This document shows positions 1 to 25,725 of a stretch of 26,033 bases of DNA, piece after piece. Both the position numbers and the translations under genes were made by a program. Every line of letters begins with the position of its first letter. Position 1 is the stretch's first letter. This stretch comes from a virus, in IMG/VR virus record IMGVR_UViG_3300025305_000117, positions 1 to 26,033 of that record. One strand, written 5' to 3'. The notes under the pieces were generated by a model. That model was given only the letters and a program-made list of their open reading frames with translations. It was not told the origin of the DNA and ran no database searches.

Positions 1-2
1 AG

Positions 3-3000
3 CTGGAAGCCAAGACCAAGGGTATTACCTTGGAGAAGAAGATTACAGAGACTGAAGCTATTAAGGAAGTGGTTGATTTATTTAAGGAATTAGACCCGGA
101 AGTAGACTATCAGACCAAGCTGGACGAATTAAGGACTCTGCAGGATAATATAGATGACCCATTAAGCCCAGAGACCCCAGAGAATGCACTGGCGCAGATA
201 GAAGCAGCAGGACAGGAGCTGGCTGGTGTTGAGCCAGCAGACCTTGCGATAGCAGGCGAGAACTATCAGGAGCTTAGAGATGGTGCTTTAGTAGATGTCA
301 TTAAAATATATCAGGGTGCAAATATGCTTACTGTTGGAGAAGAGCGTATAGAGACTTGGTATAGACAACAAGAACAATTACATCCAGACACATGGAATAA
401 AAAGATAACAGAAGTAAGGAAAGATTACCATGAAAAAACAGGTGAAAAAGACGACCCGTCACAAAGTAATGGCGAATGGTTCAGTGATAGGGGTAAAGAG
501 AATCTCCTTAGTGAAAAGAAACTCTCAGGGAAAGTCCCTTCGGCTCTCGCACGACTATTCAGAAAGTTCAGAGAATATGTCCAAGCTCTCAGGAAAAGTG
601 CCGATAGGTTTGCTAAGTACGTTAAACAGGGCAAGGTCTCAAAAGAATTAAAGAGTTTCTTAGACAGGTCTGTCAGTGAAAAATTAAGGACTGCTGGTGA
701 AATAAAGACAATAAAAGAAGGGACTGCAGTAAAAACTGGAGTTCCTAATTATGAATTAATATTAAAAAAGAAAGCCCGTACACATTCAGAATTAAAGAAA
801 TTAATACCAGAGAGTCAAAGGGTTGTAGTAAAGAAAGGAAAAAATGAGCCATATCCCCATGTCAGCGGCTCTAAGTTTAAAGATTTGCCTGCATTGGAGA
901 AAACAGAATCTAATGTTACAGTTACTCAGTCAGAGATAAATAAAGCATATAATGATGCATTAAAGTCTGCTGGTATAGACCCAGCAGGGTTGCCTGCAGA
1001 TATGGAGCCAATGGGAGTAGATTTCTGGAATGATGCATTGTCTCTTCCAGACCAAGTTAGGTACTGGTATGAAATAAGTGCTGAAGCCTTTGGGGGAAGA
1101 TTGGTTGATATGACACCTGCAGAGATTCAAACAGCATTAGCTGTTAGTAGTGCAGCAAGTGTTCAGGCAACACCAGATTTACAGATAGCTCGCACCATTA
1201 GTATTCTTGCTCAGGTAGAGCAAGGAAAGCCAGTAACGGTAGGGACTCCAGTTCCAAAGACAGTTCAGGATGCACTATTTAAAAGTTTAAAGGGATTAAA
1301 AACTGGGAATTTTGAACAGACCTTCTCATATATATTAGGATATGTCCCAGAAGCTCCTTTGTCCACAAATGATAGACAGGTCGCAGCCTATTTTAATATT
1401 TCTCCAGATTTGTTAGGCTCTGAAGGGAACTTATACGAAGCATTATCAAAGTTTCATATTAATCTTCGTGATATTATCAATAAAAAACTCCCAGAAGGCG
1501 CACAGCCCTATGAGAGCTGGCAGCTACAGGCTTTACCTTGGGTTCAAATGAGAAGGAATAAAGGTGTAAGTTTAGAGTCAAACGATTTACAGCAAGCATT
1601 AGACAATACTTTAGTAAAATTAGAGAATGCAGGTATTGATGTCCCAAGGAATCCTGCAGGTGATATGATTATTACCAAGGAGCTTTTAAATAATCCAAAG
1701 GTCATTGATGTATTAAGTCCGACATCAAAGCAATTTGAGCAGGCGAAGATTGCTACTGTGGAAGTTGGTACTACTTTGACTCCTGAAGGCAAGTCTGCAG
1801 CAAAGTTAAATAGTAATTTAAAAAAATTAAGAGAAGGAGTCACCGACTTAAGAAAATTAAATAGCATAGATAAAGCTCTTGATGAATATGATTCTATCAG
1901 AAGGAGAAACCTTGGAAAATTGAGTAGACCAAATGCTAACCTTGGTGGGAAAAGTATTGTAGATAATATAATACAGACAGTTACTGGAAGAGTGTCTAAA
2001 GTGAGTAGAATAGAATATGGTCGTGGTGTTGGAGGAACATACGAAGGAGTATTTAGTCCTAATATTCGCATACCACTTGTTACAAAATTTACTCCAAAAG
2101 GTGTTTACGCATTAGATGGTAATCAAACTAATCAAATGCTTGCATTGTTGGGAGATAAATTGGAACAAGCAGCAATGGCTGCAAGCTCTTTCACAAACGC
2201 AGAAGCAAGTAAAGCACCAGACACACACTCAGCACTGATTGAACATGAAGGCATCATAGACAGTAAGGACATAGAAGTAATTGAGAATCTATTAAATAAA
2301 GAAAGTGGATTGCAATTTAGTTTCAATATCAAAAAAGTACCAAATGGAACTGTTGTTGATGTCAATCCGCATTTCAATGAAGATTTCACAATGACTGCCC
2401 CAGACAAACACATTTTAAGCTCTGCTTTGAAGACTGTATTGGGTGACAAAGTTGACATAAAGTTCTTTGATAATACCTATATTTCTAATTATATTGAACA
2501 ACCCGAATACGCAAATTACATAAAGGATTTAAAAAATGAAATTTCAAGAAGGCACATCGAGAAACTCCAAAGCCAGATTGGAGGCACTAAGAAAAGAATT
2601 TCGCAAGCGGTTAAAGGAAGAAAGGAAGTCGGGGATATCCTCGAAGGATTTTCCAAGTCTGACATTAGCCGAGCAGAGAAAGCTCGGCTTAGATACAGGA
2701 ACGACAGTAATAGTCTCAGGGAGACCACCAAAGAAATAGACCGTATTGCATCAAGCATAAGAAAAGAAGATGCACAATGGGGTAAAACCCACTCATCCAA
2801 ACTACCCACCTACGAACTAAAGAAGCTCACCCCAGAGCAAAAACGTCTTCGTGAAGAGAGAAAGCGACGAGACGAGATTGCCCAGAAAAAGAAAACAGAA
2901 GAAATATACGAAGACCTGAAGAGTCTTAATACTGATGCGCTCAGTGGTGCTGAAGCAAAAGCAGAAGAAATAAGACAGCGCACAGGTAAAAAGCCACCAA

Positions 3001-5258
3001 TATATGCAGGCTCTGTCAATCTTGACAAGCTCGTATTGGACGATGCATTAAAATCATTTGCAGTGGCTCTGGGCAAATTGCAGCCCAAGAAAAAAGTAAC
3101 TTGGGATGAGACTGGCAGAATAAGAGATGAAATCTTGTCTGATTATAAGTCAGCTATCAAGATGATGAAAAAAGGAAAAAAGCACGGCATCCTAAAATCA
3201 GCAGAGATAGACGCACTAAGGCAAATAGCTGTCAATGGTATATATAGATTAAAAGAGATGTCTGAAACTGGCAGTGATGCTGCTGCATTAAGGGCTGTAG
3301 AAAATTATTACATTGATGTATTCAAGCTATTAAATGATGTCACTTCAGAAGTTGGTAGAGCGTTAAATATATTTAAGCGTCAAGTATCAGAGCAGAGGAT
3401 GGCAAGAGCTTGGTCGCAATTATCTCGTAATATGAATGAACGGGAAATCGAAGAATTTAAGAATCTGAATATGGAAAACCCATTGGAAGTGGAAAGGTTC
3501 ATTAAAAGACTTGGTGACCCACTGCTTATGGATTATGTATATGAGTTCTGGTACAATTCTATTTTGTCTGGTGTTCCTACCCATTTGGTTAATATTATCA
3601 GCAATACATTGTGGGGAACATATCAAGTGCCATTCAGGGCTTTGTCTGGTGGGATAGATGCATTAATAACAAAATTTACTGGCAAGGAACGGCAGCGGTT
3701 CGTAGGTGAAATTGTGCCAATGATGGCTGGTATGGGAAAAGGTTGGAAAGCAGGTGCAAAAAGAGCAGGAAAGGTTATTACCACAGGACAGACACCTCTT
3801 GACCTTGAGACCAAATGGGATTTAGATATGGGCGGTTCCGTTGGCGCATTCGAGCGTTCTCCAAAGAAATTTTTAAGAGACATTGCGCCAGCCATGAGTA
3901 TGGTGGGTCGTGCTTTAAGGGCAATGGATGTTTGGGCAAACAGCATAGCGTTTGATGCCCAGATAAATGCTCTTTCCAAGCGCATGGTCAAGAAGGAAGG
4001 ATTGAAAGGTCAGGAAGCCACGGATAAAGAAATTGAATTAAGAAAGAATCCAACTACAGGCATGATTAATGATGCAAAAGATTATGCAAAATATACTACG
4101 TTTATGGATAATCCAGATAAGGTTACTGCTTTGATTGCCGAAGGAAGGTCAAAAATATGGCTTGGGCGGTTTTTTGTTCCATTTGTAAACACATTATCGA
4201 ATATATTCAAACGGGGCTGGGAGCATACGCCAGTATTAGGTCTTGTCAGGAATAAAGAATTTTACAAAGGCACAAATCAAGGATATAAAAACTCAGCCAG
4301 TGACCTTATAGCTAAACACTTGATTGGAACAGTTATCGCAGCAATTCTTATAGCAGAATATGATGAAGATAGATTTACTGGAGCAGCCCCAGAAAACAAG
4401 AAGGAGAGAGAACAGTTCTACGAACTTGGAAAACTGCCTTGGGCAATACGATTTGGTGATGAGTGGGTGCAGTACAGAAGAATAGAACCGTTTAACATGG
4501 TTCTTGCTACGGCAACCATTGTGGCAGAACAGATGAAAAAATTTAAAGAAGATGAAATTGAAGAAGTATCTGAATTGTTTTTTGCCTTGGCTGATAGGAT
4601 ATACGAGAATCTGATTGATTCAAGTATGTTAAGTGGACTATCAGATATGTTTAATAGACATGGAAAGCGAAGAAATATTTTTAAAAGGTTCGGTGCTACT
4701 TTTGTACCTTATTCTTCATTCTGGCGTTCAATCAATAGAAGTATTGAAGTTGGCATGGAAGATGATGCCAAGGTAAGAGAAATTAAAACACTGTCTGATG
4801 CATTTGCACAGAATATCCCGTTTGGTACACTAAGGTTAAAACCAAGAATGAATGTATGGGGTAAAGAGATAACATTGGAAGGCGGTGTATTAAGACAGTG
4901 GCTGCCTTTCAAATGGCGCACAGCAACAAAAGACCCTGTGGAAATAGAGCTGGAAAGGATTGGTTATTATCCTTCAATCCCCGAAGACACGGTAACGATT
5001 GATGGTGAAAAGTATGATATACCTGAGAAGTTATATGAGGATTACAGGATTCTTCTGGGTTACGATTTATACCAAGGTTTACTTGAATCATTGCAGCCAG
5101 ATTTATCACCAGAAGATGCCGCTATGAAATACAAACCTGTTATCGATGCACTGAAAAGGTCTCGTTTAGAAATTTTAAAAGATGAAATGATGAAAACTTT
5201 GCCAGCCTATCAGGAAACTATAACTTTGCCAGCTTATCAGGAAACTATAACTTTGTAA
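3..5258 (+). CDS. Giant multidomain phage protein (polyvalent/ejected-protein type), 5' partial
   Basis: The reading frame is open to the left edge of the window, so the N-terminus lies outside; a TTG at position 30 is only an in-frame codon. At least 1,750 residues are visible. From the TTG, residues about 342-505 form a compact region with a WYEISAE segment, a STNDRQVA motif and a LQALPWVQMR end. It resembles helical domains shared by large phage polyvalent proteins. A region at about 650-830 contains NIRIPL and LLGDKLEQAAMAA. A charged, probably coiled-coil stretch covers about 840-1010. From about 1165 comes a helical part with LSGVPTHLVNIISNTLWG and a hydrophobic segment near 1428-1445. 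Such proteins are known to be packaged in virions and delivered with the DNA, often carrying counter-defence domains. No catalytic motif was identified with confidence. The gene ends with a tandem duplication and is followed by a terminator, so it closes a rightward late operon. Confidence 0.75.
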   Translation: MEAKTKGITLEKKITETEAIKEVVDLFKELDPEVDYQTKLDELRTLQDNIDDPLSPETPENALAQIEAAGQELAGVEPADLAIAGENYQELRDGALVDVIKIYQGANMLTVGEERIETWYRQQEQLHPDTWNKKITEVRKDYHEKTGEKDDPSQSNGEWFSDRGKENLLSEKKLSGKVPSALARLFRKFREYVQALRKSADRFAKYVKQGKVSKELKSFLDRSVSEKLRTAGEIKTIKEGTAVKTGVPNYELILKKKARTHSELKKLIPESQRVVVKKGKNEPYPHVSGSKFKDLPALEKTESNVTVTQSEINKAYNDALKSAGIDPAGLPADMEPMGVDFWNDALSLPDQVRYWYEISAEAFGGRLVDMTPAEIQTALAVSSAASVQATPDLQIARTISILAQVEQGKPVTVGTPVPKTVQDALFKSLKGLKTGNFEQTFSYILGYVPEAPLSTNDRQVAAYFNISPDLLGSEGNLYEALSKFHINLRDIINKKLPEGAQPYESWQLQALPWVQMRRNKGVSLESNDLQQALDNTLVKLENAGIDVPRNPAGDMIITKELLNNPKVIDVLSPTSKQFEQAKIATVEVGTTLTPEGKSAAKLNSNLKKLREGVTDLRKLNSIDKALDEYDSIRRRNLGKLSRPNANLGGKSIVDNIIQTVTGRVSKVSRIEYGRGVGGTYEGVFSPNIRIPLVTKFTPKGVYALDGNQTNQMLALLGDKLEQAAMAASSFTNAEASKAPDTHSALIEHEGIIDSKDIEVIENLLNKESGLQFSFNIKKVPNGTVVDVNPHFNEDFTMTAPDKHILSSALKTVLGDKVDIKFFDNTYISNYIEQPEYANYIKDLKNEISRRHIEKLQSQIGGTKKRISQAVKGRKEVGDILEGFSKSDISRAEKARLRYRNDSNSLRETTKEIDRIASSIRKEDAQWGKTHSSKLPTYELKKLTPEQKRLREERKRRDEIAQKKKTEEIYEDLKSLNTDALSGAEAKAEEIRQRTGKKPPIYAGSVNLDKLVLDDALKSFAVALGKLQPKKKVTWDETGRIRDEILSDYKSAIKMMKKGKKHGILKSAEIDALRQIAVNGIYRLKEMSETGSDAAALRAVENYYIDVFKLLNDVTSEVGRALNIFKRQVSEQRMARAWSQLSRNMNEREIEEFKNLNMENPLEVERFIKRLGDPLLMDYVYEFWYNSILSGVPTHLVNIISNTLWGTYQVPFRALSGGIDALITKFTGKERQRFVGEIVPMMAGMGKGWKAGAKRAGKVITTGQTPLDLETKWDLDMGGSVGAFERSPKKFLRDIAPAMSMVGRALRAMDVWANSIAFDAQINALSKRMVKKEGLKGQEATDKEIELRKNPTTGMINDAKDYAKYTTFMDNPDKVTALIAEGRSKIWLGRFFVPFVNTLSNIFKRGWEHTPVLGLVRNKEFYKGTNQGYKNSASDLIAKHLIGTVIAAILIAEYDEDRFTGAAPENKKEREQFYELGKLPWAIRFGDEWVQYRRIEPFNMVLATATIVAEQMKKFKEDEIEEVSELFFALADRIYENLIDSSMLSGLSDMFNRHGKRRNIFKRFGATFVPYSSFWRSINRSIEVGMEDDAKVREIKTLSDAFAQNIPFGTLRLKPRMNVWGKEITLEGGVLRQWLPFKWRTATKDPVEIELERIGYYPSIPEDTVTIDGEKYDIPEKLYEDYRILLGYDLYQGLLESLQPDLSPEDAAMKYKPVIDALKRSRLEILKDEMMKTLPAYQETITLPAYQETITL
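5196..5255 (+). repeat. 27-bp tandem duplication at the 3' end of the giant gene
   Basis: Two adjacent 27-bp units (5196-5222 and 5223-5249) differ at one base and are followed by the first six bases of a third copy before the TAA stop. In frame, the protein ends with the nonapeptide TLPAYQETI twice and then TL. This looks like a recent slippage or recombination duplication of the last codons. The function of the tail is unknown. Confidence 0.9.
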
Positions 5259-5282
5259 GGCTCGTTCTTACGTCTTCGGGAA

Positions 5283-5317
5283 AAAAAAGGGGGCAGCCTG
5301 ATGGTCGCCCCTTTTTT
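5283..5317. terminator. Bidirectional intrinsic terminator between convergent operons
   Basis: An A6-G4 arm pairs with a C4-T6 arm around a loop of about 14 nt, so both strands show a GC-rich hairpin followed by a U-tract. It lies between the stop of the giant plus-strand gene (5258) and the end of the leftward operon (5323), where it can stop transcription from both sides. Confidence 0.85.
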
Positions 5318-5322
5318 ATTTG

Positions 5323-5892
5323 TCAGCCTTCTATGACTTCAAGCCCTGCCTTTCTAAAGGAATGGTCTTTGAATTTACATATAGTATAATGTTCGCATAA
5401 TCTATCATATACACGGGAGCCGTAAATATCAATCAATTCCTGAGAATGGAAATTGGTAGTTATGATAGTTCTGCTGCAGGGGTTTCTTTTTATATATAGA
5501 TGTCTCTTTTCTAAAAGCCCACTGAAATAATCATGGGATGCAGGAGTGTTTGGTTTTTCATCTCCAAGGTCGTCCAGCATTAAACACTTAGTGCTGAATT
5601 TATTATCGTTCTTTCTGTCAGCATCCATTTTGTCTGTATAGTCAGATGCCATGTATCCGATATGTTCCCGGTAATGCTTCATACAGGACACCATTTCCCA
5701 AGGCTCCTTACAGCGCAAGACAACTGTAGTTCCTAAGAATGTTTTGCCAGAACCAGTAGCTCCTGTAAAGAGATAATGAAACGGATTACCATTAAGCAAA
5801 TCATTATTTATCTTTGCAATGATTTTTGGGTTATTAATTTTATAGTTTTCTTTCTCGACAATCGGGTTTTCTACGATATTAAAATCACTCAT
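5323..5892 (-). CDS. DnaC/IstB-like AAA+ ATPase, helicase loader
   Basis: This 189-residue AAA+ protein has a Walker A motif GATGSGKT at residues 44-51, a Walker B segment LMLDDLGDE with D107 and D108, a sensor-like TIITTN near 142, and a C-terminal YGSRVYDRL segment matching the arginine-finger region of DnaC/IstB proteins. In the DnaC family this architecture loads the replicative helicase onto DNA. The N-terminus is short, as in many phage loaders that lack the long helicase-binding extension. The ATG follows a GGAG ribosome binding site and is the last gene of the leftward operon. No replicative helicase gene is seen in the window, so it may recruit the host enzyme or one encoded elsewhere. 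Assignment to the family is strong; loading activity is inferred. Confidence 0.88.
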   Translation of the reverse strand: MSDFNIVENPIVEKENYKINNPKIIAKINNDLLNGNPFHYLFTGATGSGKTFLGTTVVLRCKEPWEMVSCMKHYREHIGYMASDYTDKMDADRKNDNKFSTKCLMLDDLGDEKPNTPASHDYFSGLLEKRHLYIKRNPCSRTIITTNFHSQELIDIYGSRVYDRLCEHYTICKFKDHSFRKAGLEVIEG

Positions 5893-5904
5893 TATTTCTC
5901 CGTT

Positions 5905-6396
5905 TCAATTTTTTACTGTTTTTAAATACTTTAGTTCTAAGTTTTTTTTATCTGCTAATAGGTGACATATTTTTATTTCTATATCTCTTATTCCTACTGA
6001 TATATCAGATAATTCTTTAGATTTATTCACATTATTCGAAATAAAATCATCTAACCATTCGGGATTAGATGTTGATATTTCTTTCTCTTGGAATGGTGTG
6101 TCAATCTCCCAGTTCGGATTCATCATGCGTTGCTTATACTTGACAACTTTTTTCCCATTTAATATATCGCTTATATACTTTCTAACTTCATTACAATCAA
6201 AAAACCACTCACCAAATGCGCAATATTCATCTAATGCTGAATGAATTTTATGCTCATGTGTTTTATCGCCATCTACAAGACCTATAACAATCATGCCATG
6301 AGGGTTGCCCGTTTCCATGCCTCGTTTTCTTTCCATAACATTGTTTGAAGTGTATCCAATTTTTATCTTATCTAAAGATTGTATGAAGTATATCAT
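5905..6396 (-). CDS. GIY-YIG family protein (T5orf172/MUG113 type)
   Basis: The first 70 residues (MIYFIQSLDKIKIGYTS, then RKRGMETGNPHG, EHKIHSALDEY and GEWF) match the compact GIY-YIG-like T5orf172/MUG113 domain: YF replaces the first GIY, KIGYTS is the second strand, and the E/H and GEWF positions follow. The C-terminal half is charged and has no recognised domain. I place the start at the ATG at 6396. It has a GAGG ribosome binding site and overlaps the stop of the RusA gene by four bases (ATGA). A longer frame to 6483 exists but would overlap RusA by about 90 bases. Nuclease activity is plausible, but members of this family are often uncharacterised. It could be a free-standing endonuclease or a DNA-processing helper. 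Confidence 0.75.
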   Translation of the reverse strand: MIYFIQSLDKIKIGYTSNNVMERKRGMETGNPHGMIVIGLVDGDKTHEHKIHSALDEYCAFGEWFFDCNEVRKYISDILNGKKVVKYKQRMMNPNWEIDTPFQEKEISTSNPEWLDDFISNNVNKSKELSDISVGIRDIEIKICHLLADKKNLELKYLKTVKN

Positions 6397-6809
6397 TTTT
6401 CCTCTATCTCTATTGTGGTTGATGGAATTTCTGAGTAAACCTTTTCCATTTCTACTTTCCAGATTTGGGAATCGTCTACCCATAATATTTTGTTGCCGGA
6501 ATCCATAATAAACTTTAACAGATTATCTATATCCGGTTTGATTACATATTCATATGGTGGATTCGGTTTTAATTCGCCAGAATACTTACCAGTTCTATAA
6601 TGTTTCTTCACATAAGGCATAGCGAAGGTCACTTTTAATGAGATGTCGCCTTTAAGGGGCTGTTTAGGAGCTTTTGACCCTATTTGAGCAATAAAGTCTT
6701 TCTTGTGTTTACTTGACGGGTCGTATGTAAATCCTGCCCGTGTATGTCGATGTCTTTGCTGTGGCTTTGGTTTACTGCCAGTGATTTCAATCTTGTATAT
6801 ATTAATCAA
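6393..6809 (-). CDS. rusA: RusA-like Holliday junction resolvase
   Basis: This 138-residue protein carries the RusA signature: KPDIDN (D93, D95) followed by LLKFIMDSGNKILWVDDSQI (D112, D113), the acidic residues that bind metal in this family. RusA enzymes are dimeric endonucleases that resolve four-way DNA junctions, here likely during phage recombination and before packaging. The N-terminal IEITGSKPKPQQRHRH stretch also fits the family. The start appears to be TTG at 6809, whose TTGA overlaps the stop of the upstream nuclease-like gene; a GGGA precedes it. The position downstream of RecT and YqaJ in one operon supports a recombination role. Confidence 0.9.
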   Translation of the reverse strand: MINIYKIEITGSKPKPQQRHRHTRAGFTYDPSSKHKKDFIAQIGSKAPKQPLKGDISLKVTFAMPYVKKHYRTGKYSGELKPNPPYEYVIKPDIDNLLKFIMDSGNKILWVDDSQIWKVEMEKVYSEIPSTTIEIEEK

Positions 6810-7201
6810 AAGAATTTCCCAATTGAATCAGCAGATTCTCCAATGGGCAATAAATATAATTCTGATTCATTGTCATCTCCACCCATCGTTTTTCGGATAG
6901 TTCCATTCCGTATCATACCTTTCACTATATTTTTCAATTCGTCAACTGTAAACACAAGCATACCTTTGACCTTGCCATCGATTGAAAGGATATGAAACCA
7001 CCAATCAGCTTCTGTGACTGATAGCCCAGATTCCTTACCACGACACCTAATTTCAATCGCTATGTTACCAGTGTCGTACCACTTGCCTCTCTCTGTTTTG
7101 ACTTCAATCTTACCACCTGTTTTCTCAAATAGTTTTTTAAGCCCACGTTCATGGACTTCACCAAAATCAAGGTCAATATCGAATTTAGGATTATAGCCCA
7201 T
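6806..7201 (-). CDS. PD-(D/E)XK-like nuclease family protein
   Basis: The 131-residue protein has the pattern of a small restriction-endonuclease-like fold. An N-terminal acidic helix (DLDFGEVHERGLKKLFE) precedes a strand KIEVKTER (E33 and K35 as candidate ExK catalytic residues). Then come TGNIAIEIRCRGKESG and a SVTEADWW segment, which in related phage proteins follows the core. Similar proteins are common in phage recombination cassettes but their substrates are mostly unknown. It sits between the protein with an SSB-like tail and RusA and overlaps RusA by four bases. The ribosome binding site is weak. The family assignment is from pattern only. Confidence 0.6.
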   Translation of the reverse strand: MGYNPKFDIDLDFGEVHERGLKKLFEKTGGKIEVKTERGKWYDTGNIAIEIRCRGKESGLSVTEADWWFHILSIDGKVKGMLVFTVDELKNIVKGMIRNGTIRKTMGGDDNESELYLLPIGESADSIGKFF

Positions 7202-7213
7202 CTTAGGGTTTGA

Positions 7214-7531
7214 TTAAAAGGGAAGGTCGTCGTCTTCAGATTCTGTTTTTTTAGTGGCTGCTGGTTCTTTTTTAGACCACTTTTCTTTAGCCTGTTCTTT
7301 AGTCAGGACAGTATAATCAGAACAATACTTGTCAATCTCGTCAGAAGTCATAGGACGGAGTTCTACTTTCAGCGCAGGTTTGTTATCATCGTCCTGTTCT
7401 TTGGCTCCTATCCAGTGCCAACCGGCTTTGGGTACATATATCTTACCATTAAAATCATCCATCCAATCATCAGTTTTACGGTCATTAATCCATAGTCCCG
7501 ACCTGTTTTCTGTTACATATTTATCAGCCAT
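7214..7531 (-). CDS. Small acidic protein with an SSB-like DDDLPF C-terminal tail
   Basis: The 105-residue protein ends in SEDDDLPF, closely matching the acidic tip that single-stranded DNA binding proteins use to recruit partner enzymes. The rest (WHWIGAKEQDDD, VELRPMTSDEIDKYC) is much shorter than a typical SSB and I do not recognise a clear OB fold. The lysine/glutamate-rich stretch at 78-97 looks like a flexible linker. Its place in a RecT-YqaJ-RusA cassette fits a ssDNA-binding or partner-recruiting role, but this is inference. Its start overlaps the end of the upstream gene by eight bases and has an AAGGA ribosome binding site. Confidence 0.6.
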   Translation of the reverse strand: MADKYVTENRSGLWINDRKTDDWMDDFNGKIYVPKAGWHWIGAKEQDDDNKPALKVELRPMTSDEIDKYCSDYTVLTKEQAKEKWSKKEPAATKKTESEDDDLPF

Positions 7532-7709
7532 TATTTAATTCCTTATTTTTTCGGTTATTCCACGTTTGTCTAATGTCAGATATTAAAATATCAGGAGTCC
7601 AAGGGCTATTGTCTTTGTAGCTGTTGGCAATTTCAAGAATCACTTTAATAGCATTTTTATACTTGTCTTCCACGAAATATTCGACCATCTCAGTTGTGAT
7701 TTTGTTCAT
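7524..7709 (-). CDS. Small hypothetical protein in the recombination cassette
   Basis: The 61-residue, mostly helical protein (MNKITTEMVEYFVEDKYKNA...) is not recognised. The ATG has a GAGG eight bases upstream, and the stop overlaps the start of the following gene by eight bases, which argues for translational coupling. Its leader contains the structured region at 7727-7818. Confidence 0.6.
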   Translation of the reverse strand: MNKITTEMVEYFVEDKYKNAIKVILEIANSYKDNSPWTPDILISDIRQTWNNRKNKELNNG

Positions 7710-7726
7710 CTTACAATCCTCGGAAT

Positions 7727-7818
7727 GGAGGGCAAACGCATGGAGTCGTCTGCCCTCCCAACACCGTTTGGGAAGTTACGCTTGATAGGTAGTAGTTGTG
7801 GTTGCGTAACCAACGGTG
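7727..7818 (-). ncRNA. Structured intergenic RNA, two stable stem-loops, unknown class
   Basis: Directly after the RecT stop codon, a two-part stem forms. CACCGTTG (7811-7818 in minus orientation) pairs with 7762-7770 with one bulge, and GTTACGC/GCGTAAC (7775-7781 with 7804-7810) closes a 22-nt loop. A second hairpin pairs GGAGGGCA (7751-7758, minus) with TGCCCTCC (7727-7734), eight perfect base pairs around a 16-nt loop. The ribosome binding site of the next gene starts a few bases later. There is no U-tract, so it is not a standard terminator. It could stabilise or separate the RecT message, or control the 61-residue gene. It matches no RNA family I can name. Confidence 0.55.
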
Positions 7819-8688
7819 CTAATCTTCGTCCTGCGGAAATAATTCGGCAGGGTCAAAGCTGTCATCAAATTCTGGCAATGGTGTACTGCTCGAAACTTCT
7901 GGATTTGTATCTATGTCCACAACTTCCAGTTCTTTCTCCTGCATCACCGTATGCCTTGGCTCTTCAACAAAATCATCTATGTGAGCTGCTTCATTCATCA
8001 GGATGCCATTCTCGGTAGTAGACTTTGGCAGCTTCTTGTCACAAAGCTGTCTAATGACGGTCTTATATGCCATAGCATCAAAGTCTGTTTGCCAAGGACT
8101 GGATTTTGATGAGTATCCACGGCTAAACTGTTTGGCATGGGCGACAATGTCATCACGGGTCATTACCTGAAAGGCTGTACCACCATGCTTTAATTCAGCA
8201 TAAGCATAATATATACTACCTTCACCCCGGCTTGCTGATAGGCTTGGTCGATGGTGAAAGGACAGCCCATTGCTACCCTTTGAGTAATCGAACTCATCCC
8301 CTTCGCAGACCTTGTCATAGTCCAGTGACTTAATCAGCCCAGTATTCCAAGCCAATTTCATCATGCCCCGGTACTCAATCAGGAAAGTGCATTCCTGACC
8401 ATAGGGTATAAGAGCAGCTTCGCTCAATGGTGAGTTTGGCTCTAATCCATACCTTGCTGATTCCATCATCGACTTAAGTACCGAAGATGGTTTACATTGC
8501 ATCAGCTTGGGCTGTACCGCCAGAGCTGTCAGGCAAGCAGATATGTATCTTTTCGCAGACAGGTTACCCTGTGGTAAAGCGTTGGCTATCTGGATATAGA
8601 AATCACCGCTTTTGATGGTCTCTTTAAGACTGGTCTGATTGTTTGTCAGTCCCTTTGACCTTTCTTTTGCTTTTTGTAATTCAGTCAT
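7819..8688 (-). CDS. recT: RecT-family single-strand annealing protein
   Basis: The 289-residue protein shows the RecT core: LPQGNLSAKRYISACLTAL, then SVLKSMMESARYGLEPNSPLSEAALIPY, FLIEYRGMMKLA and, later, MTRDDIVAHAKQFS, SPWQTDFDAMAYKTVIRQL. RecT proteins anneal complementary single strands exposed by a partner 5'-3' exonuclease; here that is YqaJ, two genes upstream. The C-terminal 50 residues are acidic (FDDSFDPAELFPQDED), probably a disordered interaction tail. The ATG follows AAAGGAG. Length and motif order are normal for the family. Confidence 0.93.
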   Translation of the reverse strand: MTELQKAKERSKGLTNNQTSLKETIKSGDFYIQIANALPQGNLSAKRYISACLTALAVQPKLMQCKPSSVLKSMMESARYGLEPNSPLSEAALIPYGQECTFLIEYRGMMKLAWNTGLIKSLDYDKVCEGDEFDYSKGSNGLSFHHRPSLSASRGEGSIYYAYAELKHGGTAFQVMTRDDIVAHAKQFSRGYSSKSSPWQTDFDAMAYKTVIRQLCDKKLPKSTTENGILMNEAAHIDDFVEEPRHTVMQEKELEVVDIDTNPEVSSSTPLPEFDDSFDPAELFPQDED

Positions 8689-13884: not shown

Positions 13885-14061
13885 TTATTTCTCCTTGTTT
13901 AATACAAAAATTGAACCATTCCTGCGGTTTATTTTATTGTTAGGAAACTCCTTTTTCAAAATTTCCACTTGTTTTTTTGCATCATTTATATTCCCGATAT
14001 AATATTCTTTTATTATAGAATATCCTTCTGGAATTTTATAATAAGTGGTGAATGTACTCAT
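13885..14061 (-). CDS. Small hypothetical protein, 58 aa
   Basis: The protein MSTFTTYYKIPEGYSIIKEY continues with a helix (DAKKQVEILKKEF) and a basic strand, and is not recognised. The start at ATG 14061 follows the recurring ACATGGAG leader by seven bases; the frame extending to 14085 would begin inside that upstream leader region. The gene is directly downstream of the first tRNA-like element. Confidence 0.6.
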   Translation of the reverse strand: MSTFTTYYKIPEGYSIIKEYYIGNINDAKKQVEILKKEFPNNKINRRNGSIFVLNKEK

Positions 14062-14088: not shown

Positions 14089-14103
14089 GTAGCACCATGC
14101 TAC
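14089..14103 (-). other. Hairpin following the downstream tRNA-like element
   Basis: A six-base-pair hairpin, GTAGCA and TGCTAC around TGG, starts two bases after the acceptor-like stem of the 14106-14148 element. A comparable five-base-pair hairpin follows the second element, so the two copies share this layout. Confidence 0.6.
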
Positions 14104-14105
14104 AG

Positions 14106-14148
14106 AGCGCAGGGCAGGAATCGAACCTGACCAGTACCATACTGCGCT
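14106..14148 (-). ncRNA. Minimal tRNA-like element without anticodon arm (copy 1)
   Basis: In minus orientation, AGCGCAG (14142-14148) pairs with CTGCGCT (14106-14112) as a seven-base-pair acceptor-like stem. Between them lie the D-loop-like TATGGTACTG and a T-arm whose strands GTCAGG and CCTGCC (one mismatch) close a perfect tRNA T-loop, TTCGATT. D stem, anticodon arm and variable loop are absent. The kept positions correspond to T8, A9, G18, G19, T54, T55, C56 and A58, which build the tRNA elbow. It lies between the stop at 14162 and the next gene. No CCA is encoded. The likely roles are an RNase P/RNase Z-type processing signal or a tRNA mimic; both are inference. Confidence 0.7.
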
Positions 14149-14161
14149 TATTATATATATA

Positions 14162-14662
14162 CTAACCTGCAACAAAATCGAAGTAAAACCTCGGCTGATG
14201 GATGAACTCCAATGTGCCTTTGGTTCCGTCACTCTTGCGAGTCACCAAAACACAAGGTGATGCGAATCCCTGCACTGTAAAGTCCTTCTGTAGCTCTTTG
14301 GTATTCCAGACCTGACCATGTTGCTTTTCGAGTTCTTCCCGTTCAGTAAGTCGCTTTGGGAAATTCCGAGAGTCTACTGTTGGCGTTTTCCAGAATCCAT
14401 CTGCTATGCCATCAGTGTAGTCCACAAACGTCCCGTCAGAATCCTTCCAGTATTGTTTTGCCAGTTCATACCCACAACCAGTACACTTCAGGAAATACTC
14501 GAAGTTGATGTTGTCGTGAACTTGATGCCATAGCTCCCAGTTATCGTGGGATTCATAGCCTTCATACTTGCCATACTCATCTTCCAGAGGAAACCTACAC
14601 CTACAGCAACTACCTGCTTGTGCTGTCACTACTCTTGATACGGCTTTGATTAATGTTCTCAT
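14162..14662 (-). CDS. Hypothetical protein with cysteine pairs, 166 aa
   Basis: Cysteines CCRC near residue 19 and CTGC near 60 could form a zinc site. The protein continues with DGTFVDYTDGIADGFWKTP and a helical middle (RLTEREELEKQ), and ends in FDFVAG. I do not recognise a family. It starts at ATG 14662, six bases after the ACATGGAG leader. It lies between the two tRNA-like elements, which puts it on its own segment if those elements are cut. Confidence 0.6.
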   Translation of the reverse strand: MRTLIKAVSRVVTAQAGSCCRCRFPLEDEYGKYEGYESHDNWELWHQVHDNINFEYFLKCTGCGYELAKQYWKDSDGTFVDYTDGIADGFWKTPTVDSRNFPKRLTEREELEKQHGQVWNTKELQKDFTVQGFASPCVLVTRKSDGTKGTLEFIHQPRFYFDFVAG

Positions 14663-14683: not shown

Positions 14684-14699
14684 GTGACTTAATTGTCAC
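14684..14699 (-). other. Hairpin following the upstream tRNA-like element
   Basis: GTGAC and GTCAC form a five-base-pair hairpin with a six-nt loop. It starts three bases after the acceptor-like stem of the 14703-14744 element, mirroring the hairpin at 14089-14103. Confidence 0.6.
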
Positions 14700-14702
14700 A
14701 GT

Positions 14703-14744
14703 GGGTAGGGGGAGATTCGAACTCCCCCATCTACCATACTACCC
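14703..14744 (-). ncRNA. Minimal tRNA-like element without anticodon arm (copy 2)
   Basis: In minus orientation, GGGTAG (14739-14744) pairs with CTACCC (14703-14708), and GGGGAG pairs with CTCCCC around the T-loop TTCGAAT. The stems stack to 12 base pairs, the same total as a tRNA acceptor plus T-arm. The joining segment TATGGTAGATG carries the D-loop-like GG. The anticodon arm and D stem are absent. The TAG stop of the upstream ArdC-like gene is part of the acceptor-like strand, so translation termination and RNA folding overlap. It matches copy 1 in architecture but differs in both stem sequences, which looks like structural conservation with compensatory changes. Confidence 0.75.
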
Positions 14745-15731
14745 TACCAGATATACTTCGCTGTTTTTAGATTTATGCAAGGTTGGTTTCTTGGCTACGA
14801 ATTCAGTACCAAGGATGTGGTCACAGGCTTTAGCCGACCTTGACCCTGCCCAGACAATCCAATCTTCATTTTCGGCTAATTTGGACGACCATGATTTGAT
14901 ATAACTTGCGCTGTTCTGGATGACTGAACTTCTGTCAATCCCTGCAATAGCGCACAAGTAAGTTGAACCAAGTTCAGCAACCAACTCTTCCTTGCTGTAC
15001 TCATGTGAGCCGAAGAAATTCAGACCAGTAACACCTTCTCTTGCCAGTCTTTTCTTGTGACCAGTGGAATGAACTAACTCATGGAAGAATGTTGAATAGT
15101 ATTCTTCGTCAGAGATGAACTTCTCTGGTTTGACCATGTGTACTTCATCCTTCGCAGGAGTGTAATAGCATCTATCGTTCTGGTCATGGAACACATCTGG
15201 CTTGGATGGATAATTAGCGACTATCTCTTCACAAGCAGCTACAGGACTGAAATCCCTCACATCGTCGTCATCTTCAATCACGGGATAATACTTCTCTGGA
15301 AGACCTTCACATTGGTTCGCATTGAATACGTTGAATGAGAAGAGAGATGGCAATTGTTTATACGTTCCAGTACCACGGCATTTACCACAACTGCCACCAG
15401 AACAGCCACCAGATGTACCATAATAGCCAGTACAGTCTTCCGACGGGTAAAACTTCCAGTAACTCACAGGAAATGACTTCTCACCCTTCTTGACCTGACC
15501 ACCTAATTTCTTAGCCTGACCGAAGGTTAACCACCAAGGTGATTCATATCCGGCACAGCCAAGTAAACTCAGGTTAGTGCCACGATAAACCTTGTTAGTT
15601 GATGCAGACCGAGGTGCATTGAACTTGCCACCACTCCAAGGCTTTTGCCAAGGGACTATTCCATCCTTCAGAAAGCCCAGAATCCGGTCATTGATTCTCT
15701 TGCAGATTTGATTGTATTTTGCTTTATTCAC
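14739..15731 (-). CDS. ardC: ArdC-like anti-restriction protein with metallopeptidase domain
   Basis: The N-terminal part (ILGFLKDGIVPWQKPW, TNLSLL, WLTFGQAKKLGGQVKKGEKS, SFNVFNANQCEGL) matches the ssDNA-binding domain of ArdC. The C-terminal part has the zincin motif HELVHSTGH (H217, E218, H221) and EELVAELG near 247, as in the ArdC metallopeptidase domain. ArdC proteins protect incoming plasmid DNA from restriction; a similar role for phage DNA is inferred. A cysteine cluster (C100, C110, C115, C118) is inserted before SFNVFN and looks DnaJ-like (CGKCRGTG). I prefer GTG 15731 as the start. It lies six bases after the ACATGGAG leader and overlaps the previous stop by four bases, whereas ATG 15743 is inside the leader. 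Confidence 0.85.
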   Translation of the reverse strand: MNKAKYNQICKRINDRILGFLKDGIVPWQKPWSGGKFNAPRSASTNKVYRGTNLSLLGCAGYESPWWLTFGQAKKLGGQVKKGEKSFPVSYWKFYPSEDCTGYYGTSGGCSGGSCGKCRGTGTYKQLPSLFSFNVFNANQCEGLPEKYYPVIEDDDDVRDFSPVAACEEIVANYPSKPDVFHDQNDRCYYTPAKDEVHMVKPEKFISDEEYYSTFFHELVHSTGHKKRLAREGVTGLNFFGSHEYSKEELVAELGSTYLCAIAGIDRSSVIQNSASYIKSWSSKLAENEDWIVWAGSRSAKACDHILGTEFVAKKPTLHKSKNSEVYLVG

Positions 15732-15964
15732 TTTGAACTCCATGTTTGACTATTGTTAGTAGATTGATACACAAACTCACCTATAATTCCCTGAGATGAT
15801 TCCCATGACGGCTCTCCGAGTGTATGACCACTATCCTTCACTACACCCGAGAGAGATTCAATCTCGTAGTAACCTGTACTCAGGTTGATGTAGAATGTGT
15901 AAGTAAGATAACTGCCCAGTGATGAGAATGTGCAGGTGAAACTTCGGTGATTATTTTTACTCAT
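15728..15964 (-). CDS. Hypothetical protein, 78 aa
   Basis: The protein MSKNNHRSFTCTFSSLGSYLTYTFYIN looks beta-rich, with GYYEIESLSG in the middle, and is not recognised. The ATG at 15964 follows the leader ACATGGAG by six bases. Hammerhead cleavage would leave a 22-nt 5' leader ahead of this ATG. The stop overlaps the start of the ArdC-like gene, so the two are probably translated together. Confidence 0.6.
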   Translation of the reverse strand: MSKNNHRSFTCTFSSLGSYLTYTFYINLSTGYYEIESLSGVVKDSGHTLGEPSWESSQGIIGEFVYQSTNNSQTWSSK

Positions 15965-15980
15965 TTTTTACTCCATGTTT

Positions 15981-16035
15981 GGTTAAGACGGGGAACGAGT
16001 CCCCGTTTCGAGTATTGAACTCTCGTCAGTTAACC
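15981..16035 (-). ncRNA. Type I hammerhead ribozyme
   Basis: Read on the minus strand from 16035: GGTTAA (stem I), CTGACGA (core, CUGANGA), GAGT-TCAAT-ACTC (stem II, four base pairs), GAA, ACGGGGA-CTCGT-TCCCCGT (stem III, seven base pairs), C17, TTAACC (stem I, six base pairs). All invariant core bases are present and the cleavage triplet is GUC, so the cut falls between 15987 and 15986. Stem I is open, making it type I. The UGA stop of the upstream gene is within CUGACGA and its last two sense codons form stem I. Cleavage would separate the first cistron of the operon from the 78-aa and ArdC-like genes. Hammerheads are known in phages; activity here is inferred. Confidence 0.93.
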
Positions 16036-16457
16036 TTCGCATCAGCCCCAAAGTATCTTTCTACGGCATCTTCTTCACCTTCGGTGATTGCAGGGTCTTC
16101 GACTATGACCGGGTCAAGCGTAACTGTAGCACTCTTAGGAAGACTACTAATGTCGTGAATGAATCTGTAATCATTTGAGCATACATGACCAACATGATAT
16201 GATAGACCATCATAGGTTGAATGCCATTGAATCCAATCATACTTGCCTTCAGTCTGTATCAATCTGTTAAGACGAAGTAACAATTTGGTCGGGTAATACT
16301 TACCTGATTCTATACCATAAAATTCACCACCATTTACATCAGACACTATTGCATGACCCCTTGGAAGTGTAGAGAATAATTCCCCTGCTCTGCTCAGTAA
16401 GACACTGAGTTCTGACGAATGCAGGACATATTCTGATTGTGTTTTGTAGTTTCTCAT
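16026..16457 (-). CDS. Hypothetical protein, first gene of the leftward operon
   Basis: The 143-residue protein (MRNYKTQSEYVLHSSELSVLLS...) contains ESGKYYPTKLLLRLNRL, DWIQWHSTYDGLSYHVGHVCS and an acidic C-terminal tail. I do not recognise it. First-cistron position suggests high early expression, as for many phage host-takeover or anti-defence proteins, but that is inference. The ATG at 16457 follows the ACATGGAG leader by six bases. A frame reaching 16640 would read through the predicted promoter and is unlikely. Its last codons and stop are shared with the hammerhead ribozyme. Confidence 0.6.
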   Translation of the reverse strand: MRNYKTQSEYVLHSSELSVLLSRAGELFSTLPRGHAIVSDVNGGEFYGIESGKYYPTKLLLRLNRLIQTEGKYDWIQWHSTYDGLSYHVGHVCSNDYRFIHDISSLPKSATVTLDPVIVEDPAITEGEEDAVERYFGADAKVN

Positions 16458-16495
16458 TTCTGACTCCATGTTAAATGCGGTTAATTCCGCCCCAC

Positions 16496-16523
16496 AATAT
16501 ACAAAGATTACAACTGTTTCCAA
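16496..16523 (-). promoter_or_regulatory. Sigma70-type promoter for the leftward early operon
   Basis: On the minus strand TTGGAA (16518-16523) and TATATT (16496-16501) are separated by 16 bases. The transcript would start near 16489 and pass a small hairpin, GCGG-AATTAA-CCGC, before the first ribosome binding site. Confidence 0.55.
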
Positions 16524-16676
16524 TAACATATTTACATATAATGATATATTAATGGGCTTCACGACAAGGATTTTAACAATATTTGTATGGTTTGTACCAA
16601 TATCTATATCATTTACATACATAGAGAGAAGAAATTCCAATCCGTATCTGATACCAAGGAGGAGAGGGGATTATAA

Positions 16677-18675: not shown

Positions 18676-20224
18676 ATACAAATTCAGACCACACAGGGGT
18701 AAGCAGACAGAGTTTTTAAAATCTACTTCGAACTGGATATTCTACGGTGGAGCGAGGGGTGGTGGTAAATCACTGATGCTGGCATGGAAGGCAGCGTTAG
18801 TACCGAGGGCATACCATTATGAGCGTTTAAGGCGCAGGATAGAGCCAGAACAGGTAGAAGTTTTAAAAGCAGAAGGTAAATCTGTTAAAACGGTTGTAGA
18901 TGCTGTATCGATTGATTTTGCTGATTACATTGGGATTTTGATGAGAAGGACATTTCCCCAGTTGGAAAGGAACTTAAAGCCGGAATGTGATAAGTTGTAT
19001 AAGCTGTACGGGGCGAACTGGCAGGAAAGAAATAAATGCTATGTGTTCCCCAGTGGGGCAAAGATTTATCTGGTTCATTGCCAAGACAGAAGGGCTTTGG
19101 ATAACTACATTGGTGGTAACTATAATTTCATTGGGGTTGATGAAGCGAATCAATTTCCAGAAGATTGGATAGAAGAGCTGTCAACGTCGGCTCGTACCGA
19201 CAATCAGCTACTGCAGCCGCAGATATGCTTAACATCCAATCCCGGCAATATTGGTCACATATGGTTAAAACGCAAGTTTATTGACCGCTGCCCGCCTGTT
19301 GCCATAGGGAAACCGAAATATAACGAACAGTTCGATGTTTATTATCAGAATCAAAAAACGGGTAAGCCATTTATTGACGAAGAAGGGATTAGTTATCACT
19401 TTATACCAGCGACAGTATTTGATAATCCGACTCTTCTGGATAATGACCCCAATTACGTCAGAAAATTGAAAAATTTGAATCCTGTATTGAGAGCCATGTG
19501 GCTGGAAGGACGGTGGGATGTTTTCGCTGGAACTTATTTTGATAACTGGAATCCCATGCATCATGTTATACCGAAAGCATATTTCCAATATGGTGTTCAT
19601 TTCAAGAAGAATACACACACCCTTTACAGATTTTACGATTATGGCACAAAGGCTCCATTTGTCTGCTTGTTTGCTGCGGTTGACCGTGACGACAATATGA
19701 TAATATTTGATGAAATAACCGAGACTGGGCTATCCGCATCCAAGCAGGTAAAAAAGGTCAATGAGTACACTTGGGAAACTTATAAATTAAAACCAAATGA
19801 TTTCGATGATGATATTGCAGACCCCGCATATTGGACGAAACATTCTGAAAAAGAAGGTATGTTATACTCACCTGCAGACTTCTATGGTGACGATGGAATC
19901 TTTTTATCCAAGGGCAATAATGACCGTAAATCTGGAGCTAAAATCGTCTATGAAGGGCTGGAAACACCAGACGAAGGGGTTCCCCGTATTCGGTTTACAG
20001 AAAATTGTTTACAATGTATTGAAACATTTCCTAACTTACCATCGGCAGAAAATGACCCCGAAGACATTGATACCAAAGCGGATGACCATCACTACGATGC
20101 TCTCAGGTATGGTAGTTTGAAAGTTCTGCCAAGCCTTGCTATATATGAAAAAAGAAAAAAAGGGTGGCGTTATCGAATAGGAAAGTCTGATTCTGATGGC
20201 AGCACTAACTGGAAAACAGCATAA
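18665..20224 (+). CDS. terL: Terminase large subunit
   Basis: The 519-residue packaging motor has Walker A GGARGGGKS (28-36), Walker B FIGVDEANQ (D159, E160) and a C-terminal RNase H-like nuclease with D325 in FYDYGTKAP, D386 in DIADPAYW and the D473/D474...D478 motif DDHHYDALRYG. It translocates DNA into the prohead and cuts the concatemer. The GTG start overlaps the initiator gene by 11 bases and has GAGG upstream; the stop overlaps the portal ATG by one base. No small terminase gene is next to it; the HTH protein at 10648-11244 is one candidate. Confidence 0.95.
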   Translation: MISKYKFRPHRGKQTEFLKSTSNWIFYGGARGGGKSLMLAWKAALVPRAYHYERLRRRIEPEQVEVLKAEGKSVKTVVDAVSIDFADYIGILMRRTFPQLERNLKPECDKLYKLYGANWQERNKCYVFPSGAKIYLVHCQDRRALDNYIGGNYNFIGVDEANQFPEDWIEELSTSARTDNQLLQPQICLTSNPGNIGHIWLKRKFIDRCPPVAIGKPKYNEQFDVYYQNQKTGKPFIDEEGISYHFIPATVFDNPTLLDNDPNYVRKLKNLNPVLRAMWLEGRWDVFAGTYFDNWNPMHHVIPKAYFQYGVHFKKNTHTLYRFYDYGTKAPFVCLFAAVDRDDNMIIFDEITETGLSASKQVKKVNEYTWETYKLKPNDFDDDIADPAYWTKHSEKEGMLYSPADFYGDDGIFLSKGNNDRKSGAKIVYEGLETPDEGVPRIRFTENCLQCIETFPNLPSAENDPEDIDTKADDHHYDALRYGSLKVLPSLAIYEKRKKGWRYRIGKSDSDGSTNWKTA

Positions 20225-25638: not shown

Positions 25639-25665
25639 TTAGGGGGGGCTTTTTAGCCCCCCTAA
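25639..25665 (+). terminator. GC-rich hairpin, likely transcription terminator of the capsid operon
   Basis: TTAGGGGGGGC and GCCCCCCTAA pair around a TTTTTA loop. A U-run is in the loop, not after the stem, so it is a weak fit to a classical intrinsic terminator. The 160-base gap between two genes still makes a termination or attenuation role likely. An upstream GGGG/CCCC hairpin adds further structure. Confidence 0.6.
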
Positions 25666-25725
25666 TCATTTAACAGAGTGTTCACGGTCTACCAGACCTT
25701 TAAACTCGACTCAAGGAGTGAATAA

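Follow-up and report, generated by a model that had tools for sequence, protein, structure and literature searches.

What is half a transfer RNA (tRNA) doing across the stop codon of a phage gene? The question is raised by a 42-nucleotide (nt) element in a stretch of viral DNA, positions 1–26,033 of IMG/VR virus record IMGVR_UViG_3300025305_000117; "the window" hereafter means this whole 26,033-nt stretch. The original prediction described the element as the elbow half of a tRNA, consisting of two stacked stems of 6+6 base pairs (bp), a canonical T loop and a D-loop-like GG, and precisely this is present at 14703–14744 on the minus strand. It had been reported as a single element; it is real, but it belongs to a widespread RNA family, and the window holds another member at 14147–14107. 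We refer to members of this family as mimics. The comparisons that follow suggest that a mimic probably acts in cis as a site at which the tRNA-end machinery of the host cuts: it would punctuate the phage operon and would be cut mainly on its 3′ side, by an RNase Z-type activity.

The sense strand of the first copy (mimic 1) is the minus strand, 14744–14703, on which a leftward operon is encoded. Starting at 14744, the sequence in the 5′ to 3′ direction is GGGUAG-UAUGGUA-GAUG-GGGGAG-UUCGAAU-CUCCCC-CUACCC, then A-C-U-G. The stop codon of the ArdC-like gene (TAG, 14741–14739) does lie in the acceptor-like strand, where it forms acceptor bases 4–6. The total of 12 bp in the stack agrees with that of tRNA, as predicted, but it is split 6+6 between acceptor-like and T-like stems rather than 7+5. 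Both the anticodon arm and the D arm had been described as lacking; the former is indeed absent, whereas the latter is shrunk to a rudimentary mini-hairpin in which one closing pair (sometimes two) surrounds AUGGU. Mimics 1 and 2 have mostly different stem sequences and almost the same unpaired segments. In the orthologues of mimic 2 in L004–L006 (L-numbers are labels of the sequence stretches compared with the window) the U·C mismatch of the T-stem is replaced by G-C. No tRNA was found in the window by ARAGORN or by Rfam, at the gathering threshold or at E≤10, and neither reports other RNA. A single-sequence fold of the plus strand gave z = −2.3; since plus is the non-sense strand, this is not counted as evidence.

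Ten IMG/VR relatives of the ArdC-like protein carry more copies, with differing stems. Together with copies gathered by two loop-only pattern scans of IMG/VR, the final set comprises 135 distinct mimics from 114 fetched IMG/VR stretches. A covariance model (R1), built from an alignment that includes both window copies, scores mimic 1 at 56.8 bits (14744–14701) and mimic 2 at 54.0, the next best match in the window reaching 12.2; whole records hold up to 8–9 R1 matches each, the highest counts taking in weak ones. The original prediction was to be given up if relatives lacked compensatory changes. Such changes were found in both stems and in the closing pair of the D mini-hairpin. In an alignment of 34 diverse copies 99.3% of stem cells are paired (52% when shuffled), all column pairs of both stems are kept, and there are 216 two-sided base changes compared with 56 after shuffling. 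The pair closing AUGGU covaries as well: it is U-A in 29 of these copies, A-U in 2, C-G in 2 and G-C in 1, and in the large set U-A in 72, A-U in 25, G-C in 13, C-G in 9 and non-Watson-Crick in 7.

Because the 34 aligned copies had been selected for pairing, pattern hits obtained with no stem requirement were also tested. Both stems are present in 48 of 124 hits of a loop-only pattern, where 2.0 are expected, and in 58 of 79 hits of a second pattern. With the complete filter, 2.3 Mb of real sequence yields 128 hits; reversed sequence yields none, and neither does shuffled sequence. A chance hairpin is ruled out by the test that required no stem and by the counts in real versus reversed or shuffled sequence. 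The idea of a stem limited to exactly 12 bp is unsupported: the next pair out is formed in 40 of 91 copies (30 expected), and the pair beyond it is depleted.

Could the mimic then be a decayed tRNA gene, or an attachment site derived from one? Like many attachment sites, it has a T loop and acceptor that resemble a tRNA 3′ half, but the stems are unrelated in every copy and fully compensated, and several copies occur per genome. The TATGGTA pattern, moreover, occurs in 107 stretches of the viral collection as against 19 places in bacterial and archaeal genomes, of which 84,980 were scanned. Only about half of these cellular places fold, and the family thus looks essentially viral. Covariation refutes the decayed tRNA and the attachment site, to which we give practically no credence. 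Among named phages, no copies were found at E≤0.001 in Cellulophaga phages phi14:2, phi17:2 and phi4:1; phi38:1 gave a weak match only, within an annotated tRNA. No close named phage relative of the window was found.

The position of the copies is as distinctive as their fold. Intergenic sequence holds 36 of 49 copies, compared with 16% of random sites, and where both neighbours could be seen (34 copies) 23 are flanked by genes co-oriented with the element. For a census of stop codons we took copies with an upstream open reading frame (ORF) of at least 60 codons ending nearby, which left 75 assessable. In 63 of them the upstream stop falls between −15 and +10 nt relative to the element; its last base is acceptor base 1 in 14, and there is some overlap between stop and element in 20. 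The next start codon follows at a median of 32 nt downstream of the mimic. The mimics, with a covarying tRNA-like fold sited at gene boundaries, are in this respect like the t-elements of plant mitochondria, tRNA-like structures which lie in mRNA outside the coding region and are thought to be cut out by RNase P and RNase Z, defining mRNA ends (PMC11658184). As to descent from a tRNA gene, the stems differ wholly from one copy to the next and no parent tRNA was identified.

What such a fold might do at these boundaries is suggested by what can take its place. A type-I hammerhead ribozyme lies at a third junction of the same operon, between the genes at 16640–16026 and 15964–15728. It has CUGANGA, stem II, GAAA, stem III, a UH cleavage site and stem I, and its helices covary across ten relatives. 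With our own model (R2), which includes that copy, it scores 77.8 bits; Rfam RF00163 gives it E=0.014 and 19.6 bits, under the gathering score. The stop of the gene before it (UGA, 16028–16026) sits in its catalytic CUGA, and upstream stops in hammerheads lie within stem I or the catalytic CUGA (offset +6 or +10). Shuffled sequence (3.4 Mb) contained no hammerheads.

The two kinds of element exchange at one and the same junction, which went unseen in the original prediction. Homologous junctions were matched by comparison of the flanking proteins. After the ArdC homologue, L003 and L004 carry no mimic and instead a type-I hammerhead, GGUUAA CUGAUGAG UCC UGAAU GGA CGAAA CUGGG..CCCAG UC^UUAACC, whereas a mimic stands after it in the window, L006, L008, L009, L107 and L175, at protein identities down to 31%. 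Before ArdC the hammerhead occurs in L003 and L006, and the mimic in L107. L006 has three hammerheads and three mimics alternating along a single operon. On L261, which was assigned by binning to a Thermoplasmatota archaeon, successive gene junctions within 8 kb (1–8000) of the contig hold five hammerheads and two mimics, and every one of these elements is followed by a Shine-Dalgarno sequence and a start codon. (The genes of L261 have no PHROG match; it may be an archaeal virus or plasmid.) As far as sequences can tell, this exchange is the strongest clue to the function of the mimic: given that relatives swap it for a self-cutting ribozyme, the mimic probably signals host tRNA-trimming enzymes to cut the mRNA.

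The exchange bears equally on the idea of a decoy acting in trans, with mimics titrating an enzyme that binds tRNA or an elbow-reading defence factor of the host. The several different copies per phage genome (as many as the 8–9 R1 matches per record noted above, weak ones included) would fit a decoy, but the strict siting at junctions beside the stop, the placement on the mRNA strand and the swap with hammerheads all point to action in cis, and we think a decoy improbable.

If the mimic is a cut site, on which side would it be cut? The original prediction held that its 12-bp stack is recognized by both RNase P and RNase Z. Full punctuation of this kind, in which RNase P at the 5′ end and RNase Z at the 3′ end excise a 43-nt mimic in the manner of tRNA genes between mitochondrial mRNAs, has in its favour the 12-bp stack, the T loop and the conserved GG; C74 would also suit the RCC contact of bacterial RNase P. 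The flanks, however, differ in how far they resemble those of tRNA. On the 3′ side the 135 copies show N73 followed by C74 (93), U or A (111) and A (87), and the phage tRNAs without an encoded CCA that a descriptor blind to the 3′ end picked out of the same data have C74 in 105 of 114, then A/U, then A. (C74 followed by A/U and A in CCA-less phage tRNA genes is apparently a common signature of 3′ processing.) On the 5′ side position −1 is A in 74 of 135 mimics but U in 108 of 159 real tRNAs, and +1 is G in 41% versus 66%. The 3′ side of the mimic resembles that of an ordinary CCA-less phage tRNA and its 5′ side is less tRNA-like.

The stop codons separate the two enzymes further. An RNase P cut would clip the upstream stop in the 20 copies that overlap it, mimic 1 included. 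A hammerhead replacing the mimic cuts only on its 3′ side, so the upstream stop survives; the mimic overlaps the stop likewise, so that a 5′ cut would yield a nonstop mRNA and a 3′ cut would not. Taken together, the stop overlap and the closer likeness to tRNA of the 3′ flank than of the 5′ flank favour a 3′ cut. The RNase Z half of the predicted recognition is thus favoured by the N73-C74-[U/A]-A end, while the RNase P half is less favoured; RNase P as sole enzyme is weakened by the same two observations on the 5′ side, and excision by both enzymes is a clearly less likely account.

Directly after the predicted cut a short hairpin is enriched (34 of 91 mimics, versus 9±3 when shuffled), and both window copies have one. 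Within the close family of the window, 15 of 16 mimics and none of nine hammerheads are followed by it (Fisher, 5e-6); one apparent stem in L006, which pairs with its own Shine-Dalgarno sequence, is left out of this count, and with that stem the figures become 16 of 17 versus 1 of 9 (5e-5). A possible reason for the contrast is that nuclease cuts would leave a 5′ phosphate, which invites decay, and hammerheads a 5′-OH. It may instead be asked whether the main role of the mimic is to shield the upstream mRNA at its 3′ end, which might also receive CCA, any trimming being the work of exonucleases with no specific endonuclease. The compact elbow fold would suit a stabilizer, as would the N-C end, which is that of tRNA genes before CCA addition, and plant t-elements do receive CCA (PMC11658184). 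Stabilization alone leaves both the hammerhead exchange and the adjoining hairpin unexplained, and as the whole explanation it is unlikely; it is compatible with a cut site as a second effect.

Punctuation by a 3′ cut could proceed as follows. The mimic would fold within the nascent polycistronic mRNA, retaining for end-processing enzymes the 12-bp acceptor/T stack, the UUCGAnU loop, the elbow GG and the unpaired N-C end, and dispensing with the decoding arm. Human RNase Z, for comparison, contacts tRNA at the acceptor and the T arm and also recognizes the elbow, where G18 and G19 meet the T loop (PMC11996679). A cut just after the discriminator N73 would then be made by the RNase Z of the host or by some similar activity on tRNA 3′ ends. 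The upstream mRNA would keep its stop codon intact and end in a compact tRNA-like 3′ cap; the downstream mRNA would begin with C-U/A, usually protected by the hairpin, some 30 nt ahead of its start codon. Hammerheads would serve the same role at other junctions and stand in for the mimic at the same one. In a halovirus, one mapped transcript 5′ end falls at a hammerhead that lies 13 nt ahead of a helicase gene (PMC3088659).

Several points weigh against this interpretation. Orthologous junctions are few, and so, outside the window's family, are the records with both kinds of element: the two co-occur in 4 of 149 mimic loci versus 0 of 162 without (P=0.05), and in 2 of 50 versus 0 of 50 whole records. 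In the co-occurrence count the Rfam hammerhead model at E≤0.5 missed even the window's own copy; it is too insensitive, and our own descriptor and model were therefore used for counting. Phage hammerheads that score under RF00163, or miss it, are for the same reason probably under-counted. In L261 a hairpin comes after some of the hammerheads too, and the hairpin contrast is consequently clean only in the close family; the hammerhead products of L261 mostly start with a hairpin of the GUAG-GAAA-CUAC type. Since the mimic comprises only half of a tRNA and is split 6+6, bacterial RNase Z or RNase P may fail to accept it. In some bacteria C74-C75 can be inhibitory to RNase Z; C74 is usual here and C75 rare. 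Finally, what can be read directly in the sequence is the fold, the family, the location, the tRNA-like 3′ flank, the exchange with hammerheads and the downstream hairpin; the cutting, RNase Z as the enzyme and the purpose of the cut we infer from these.

The mimic is neither a tRNA, nor a YrlA RNA, nor a hammerhead. With tRNA (RF00005) and the tRNA-like domain of transfer-messenger RNA (RF00023) it shares the T arm (T loop UUCRANN), the acceptor stem, the D-loop GG and the N73-C74 end. It differs in having no anticodon arm, no normal D arm and no 7+5 stack, and both ARAGORN and the Rfam models miss it in the window. YrlA bacterial Y RNAs also imitate the tRNA elbow, having a tRNA-mimicking domain, and lie beside Ro60 genes. 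They are much larger than the mimic, act in trans and are tied to Ro60/TROVE genes. The window has no Rfam Y RNA match, and no TROVE domain was found among the window proteins scanned. Phage type-I hammerheads (Perreault 2011, PMC3088659; RF00163) resemble mimics in occupying the same junctions in the window's family, in overlapping the upstream stop and in the predicted cutting of the same polycistronic RNA, and they flank ardA, another anti-restriction gene (PMC3088659). They are self-cleaving and of unrelated fold, whereas the mimic, lacking a catalytic core, would depend on an enzyme of the host. From t-elements the mimic is set apart by its lack of an anticodon arm, a D arm of 1–2 bp, the 6+6 split and its setting in phage operons. 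No published description of such an element was found in the literature searched, most subscription papers lying outside its reach. By its probable mode of action the mimic extends tRNA-like mRNA punctuation; in structure and setting it is new as far as that literature shows.

A number of other tRNA-like RNAs came to light in the scans. In the Bacteroides phage crAss001 (L367, MH675552, ∼96240–96400, minus strand) an unannotated RNA beside a TROVE (Ro60-like) gene has tRNA-like ends, GGGGAUG ... GGUUCGAGUCC ... CAUCCCCA, and a long interior, and resembles YrlA Y RNA; the same gap holds a split tRNA-like match to RF00005 (46.6 bits, 144 nt). The R1 match there (24 bits) was rejected as a mini mimic, as it belongs to this different, larger RNA. 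Streptococcus agalactiae prophages (L067, L072 and L368, e.g. Javan53 at ∼18990–19470) carry upstream of the packaging genes an unannotated stretch of 300–450 nt in which one complete mini mimic (AGACCU..GGGUCU) occurs along with several T-arm motifs and with tRNA-like ends nested in each other; it is possibly a large structured RNA like GOLLD. A ∼180-nt RNA, conserved in Bacteroidales contigs of GTDB (Prevotellaceae, Paludibacter and Dysgonamonadaceae; L244, L252, L253 and L258), starts with a mini-tRNA-like domain, ends in a terminator (AGGGGC..GCCCCUUUU) and has no Rfam match above threshold. It looks like a separate, stand-alone RNA gene, and these four were not accepted as junction mimics. 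In Weissella paramesenteroides (L260, 7086–6203, likely a prophage) a tRNA, a mini mimic and a GOLLD RNA (RF02032) follow in that order within 900 nt; GOLLD is a large separate RNA, and the window has none.

The features of the window are collected in Table 1. Elsewhere in it a perfect hairpin, GGGGGGC..GCCCCCC, at 25643–25669 on the plus strand, lies where a late gene region ends and is likely a terminator or other structure.

Table 1. Mimics, hammerhead ribozyme and adjoining genes in the window.
Feature	Position	Strand	Basis or remark
Mimic 1, acceptor 5′ strand; D mini-hairpin UAUGGUA	14744–14739; 14738–14732	−	Sequence, covariation
Mimic 1, linker; T-stem 5′	14731–14728; 14727–14722	−	Sequence, covariation
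Mimic 1, T loop; T-stem 3′; acceptor 3′	14721–14715; 14714–14709; 14708–14703	−	Sequence, covariation
Mimic 1, tRNA-like 3′ flank A73-C74-U75-G76	14699–14702	−	RNase Z-type cut predicted after 14702
Hairpin GUGAC-AAUUAA-GUCAC after mimic 1, at predicted new 5′ end of downstream mRNA	14684–14699	−	
ArdC-like gene upstream of mimic 1, 334 amino acids (aa), ArdcN + MPTase-PolyVal	14739–15743	−	Domain matches
Gene downstream of mimic 1, 166 aa, no family match	14162–14662	−	Shine-Dalgarno-like GGAG, 14672–14669
Mimic 2, GCGCAG UAUGGUA CUG GUCAGG UUCGAUU CCUGCC CUGCGC	14107–14147	−	Independent T-arm pattern search; covariance model
Hairpin GUAGCA-UGG-UGCUAC after mimic 2	14089–14103	−	
Small ORF after mimic 2, 58 aa, ATG at 14061, GGAG just upstream	13885–14061	−	Position read from sequence
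Type-I hammerhead ribozyme, predicted cut between 15987 and 15986	15981–16035	−	Own model R2, Rfam RF00163, covariation
Gene upstream of hammerhead, 204 aa, no family match	16026–16640	−	ORF list
Gene downstream of hammerhead, 78 aa, just before ArdC-like gene	15728–15964	−	ORF list

The mimics are a case of a minimal tRNA fold that evolution has kept, in many unrelated phages, for a use other than decoding, and nature here offers candidate minimal substrates for both RNase Z and RNase P. That hammerheads and mimics exchange at the same junction provides a clue to function without experiment and suggests why phages carry scattered hammerheads. We lean, by a small measure, towards a broader view: virus-specific mimics without an anticodon arm would be enzyme-dependent equivalents of hammerheads, and diverse phages, possibly also archaeal viruses, would punctuate their operons with interchangeable self-cut and host-cut modules. 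A part of 42 nt could serve as a candidate module for separating mRNAs, and the exchange draws attention to the cutting of RNA at gene junctions, a level of gene control that has been neglected in phages.
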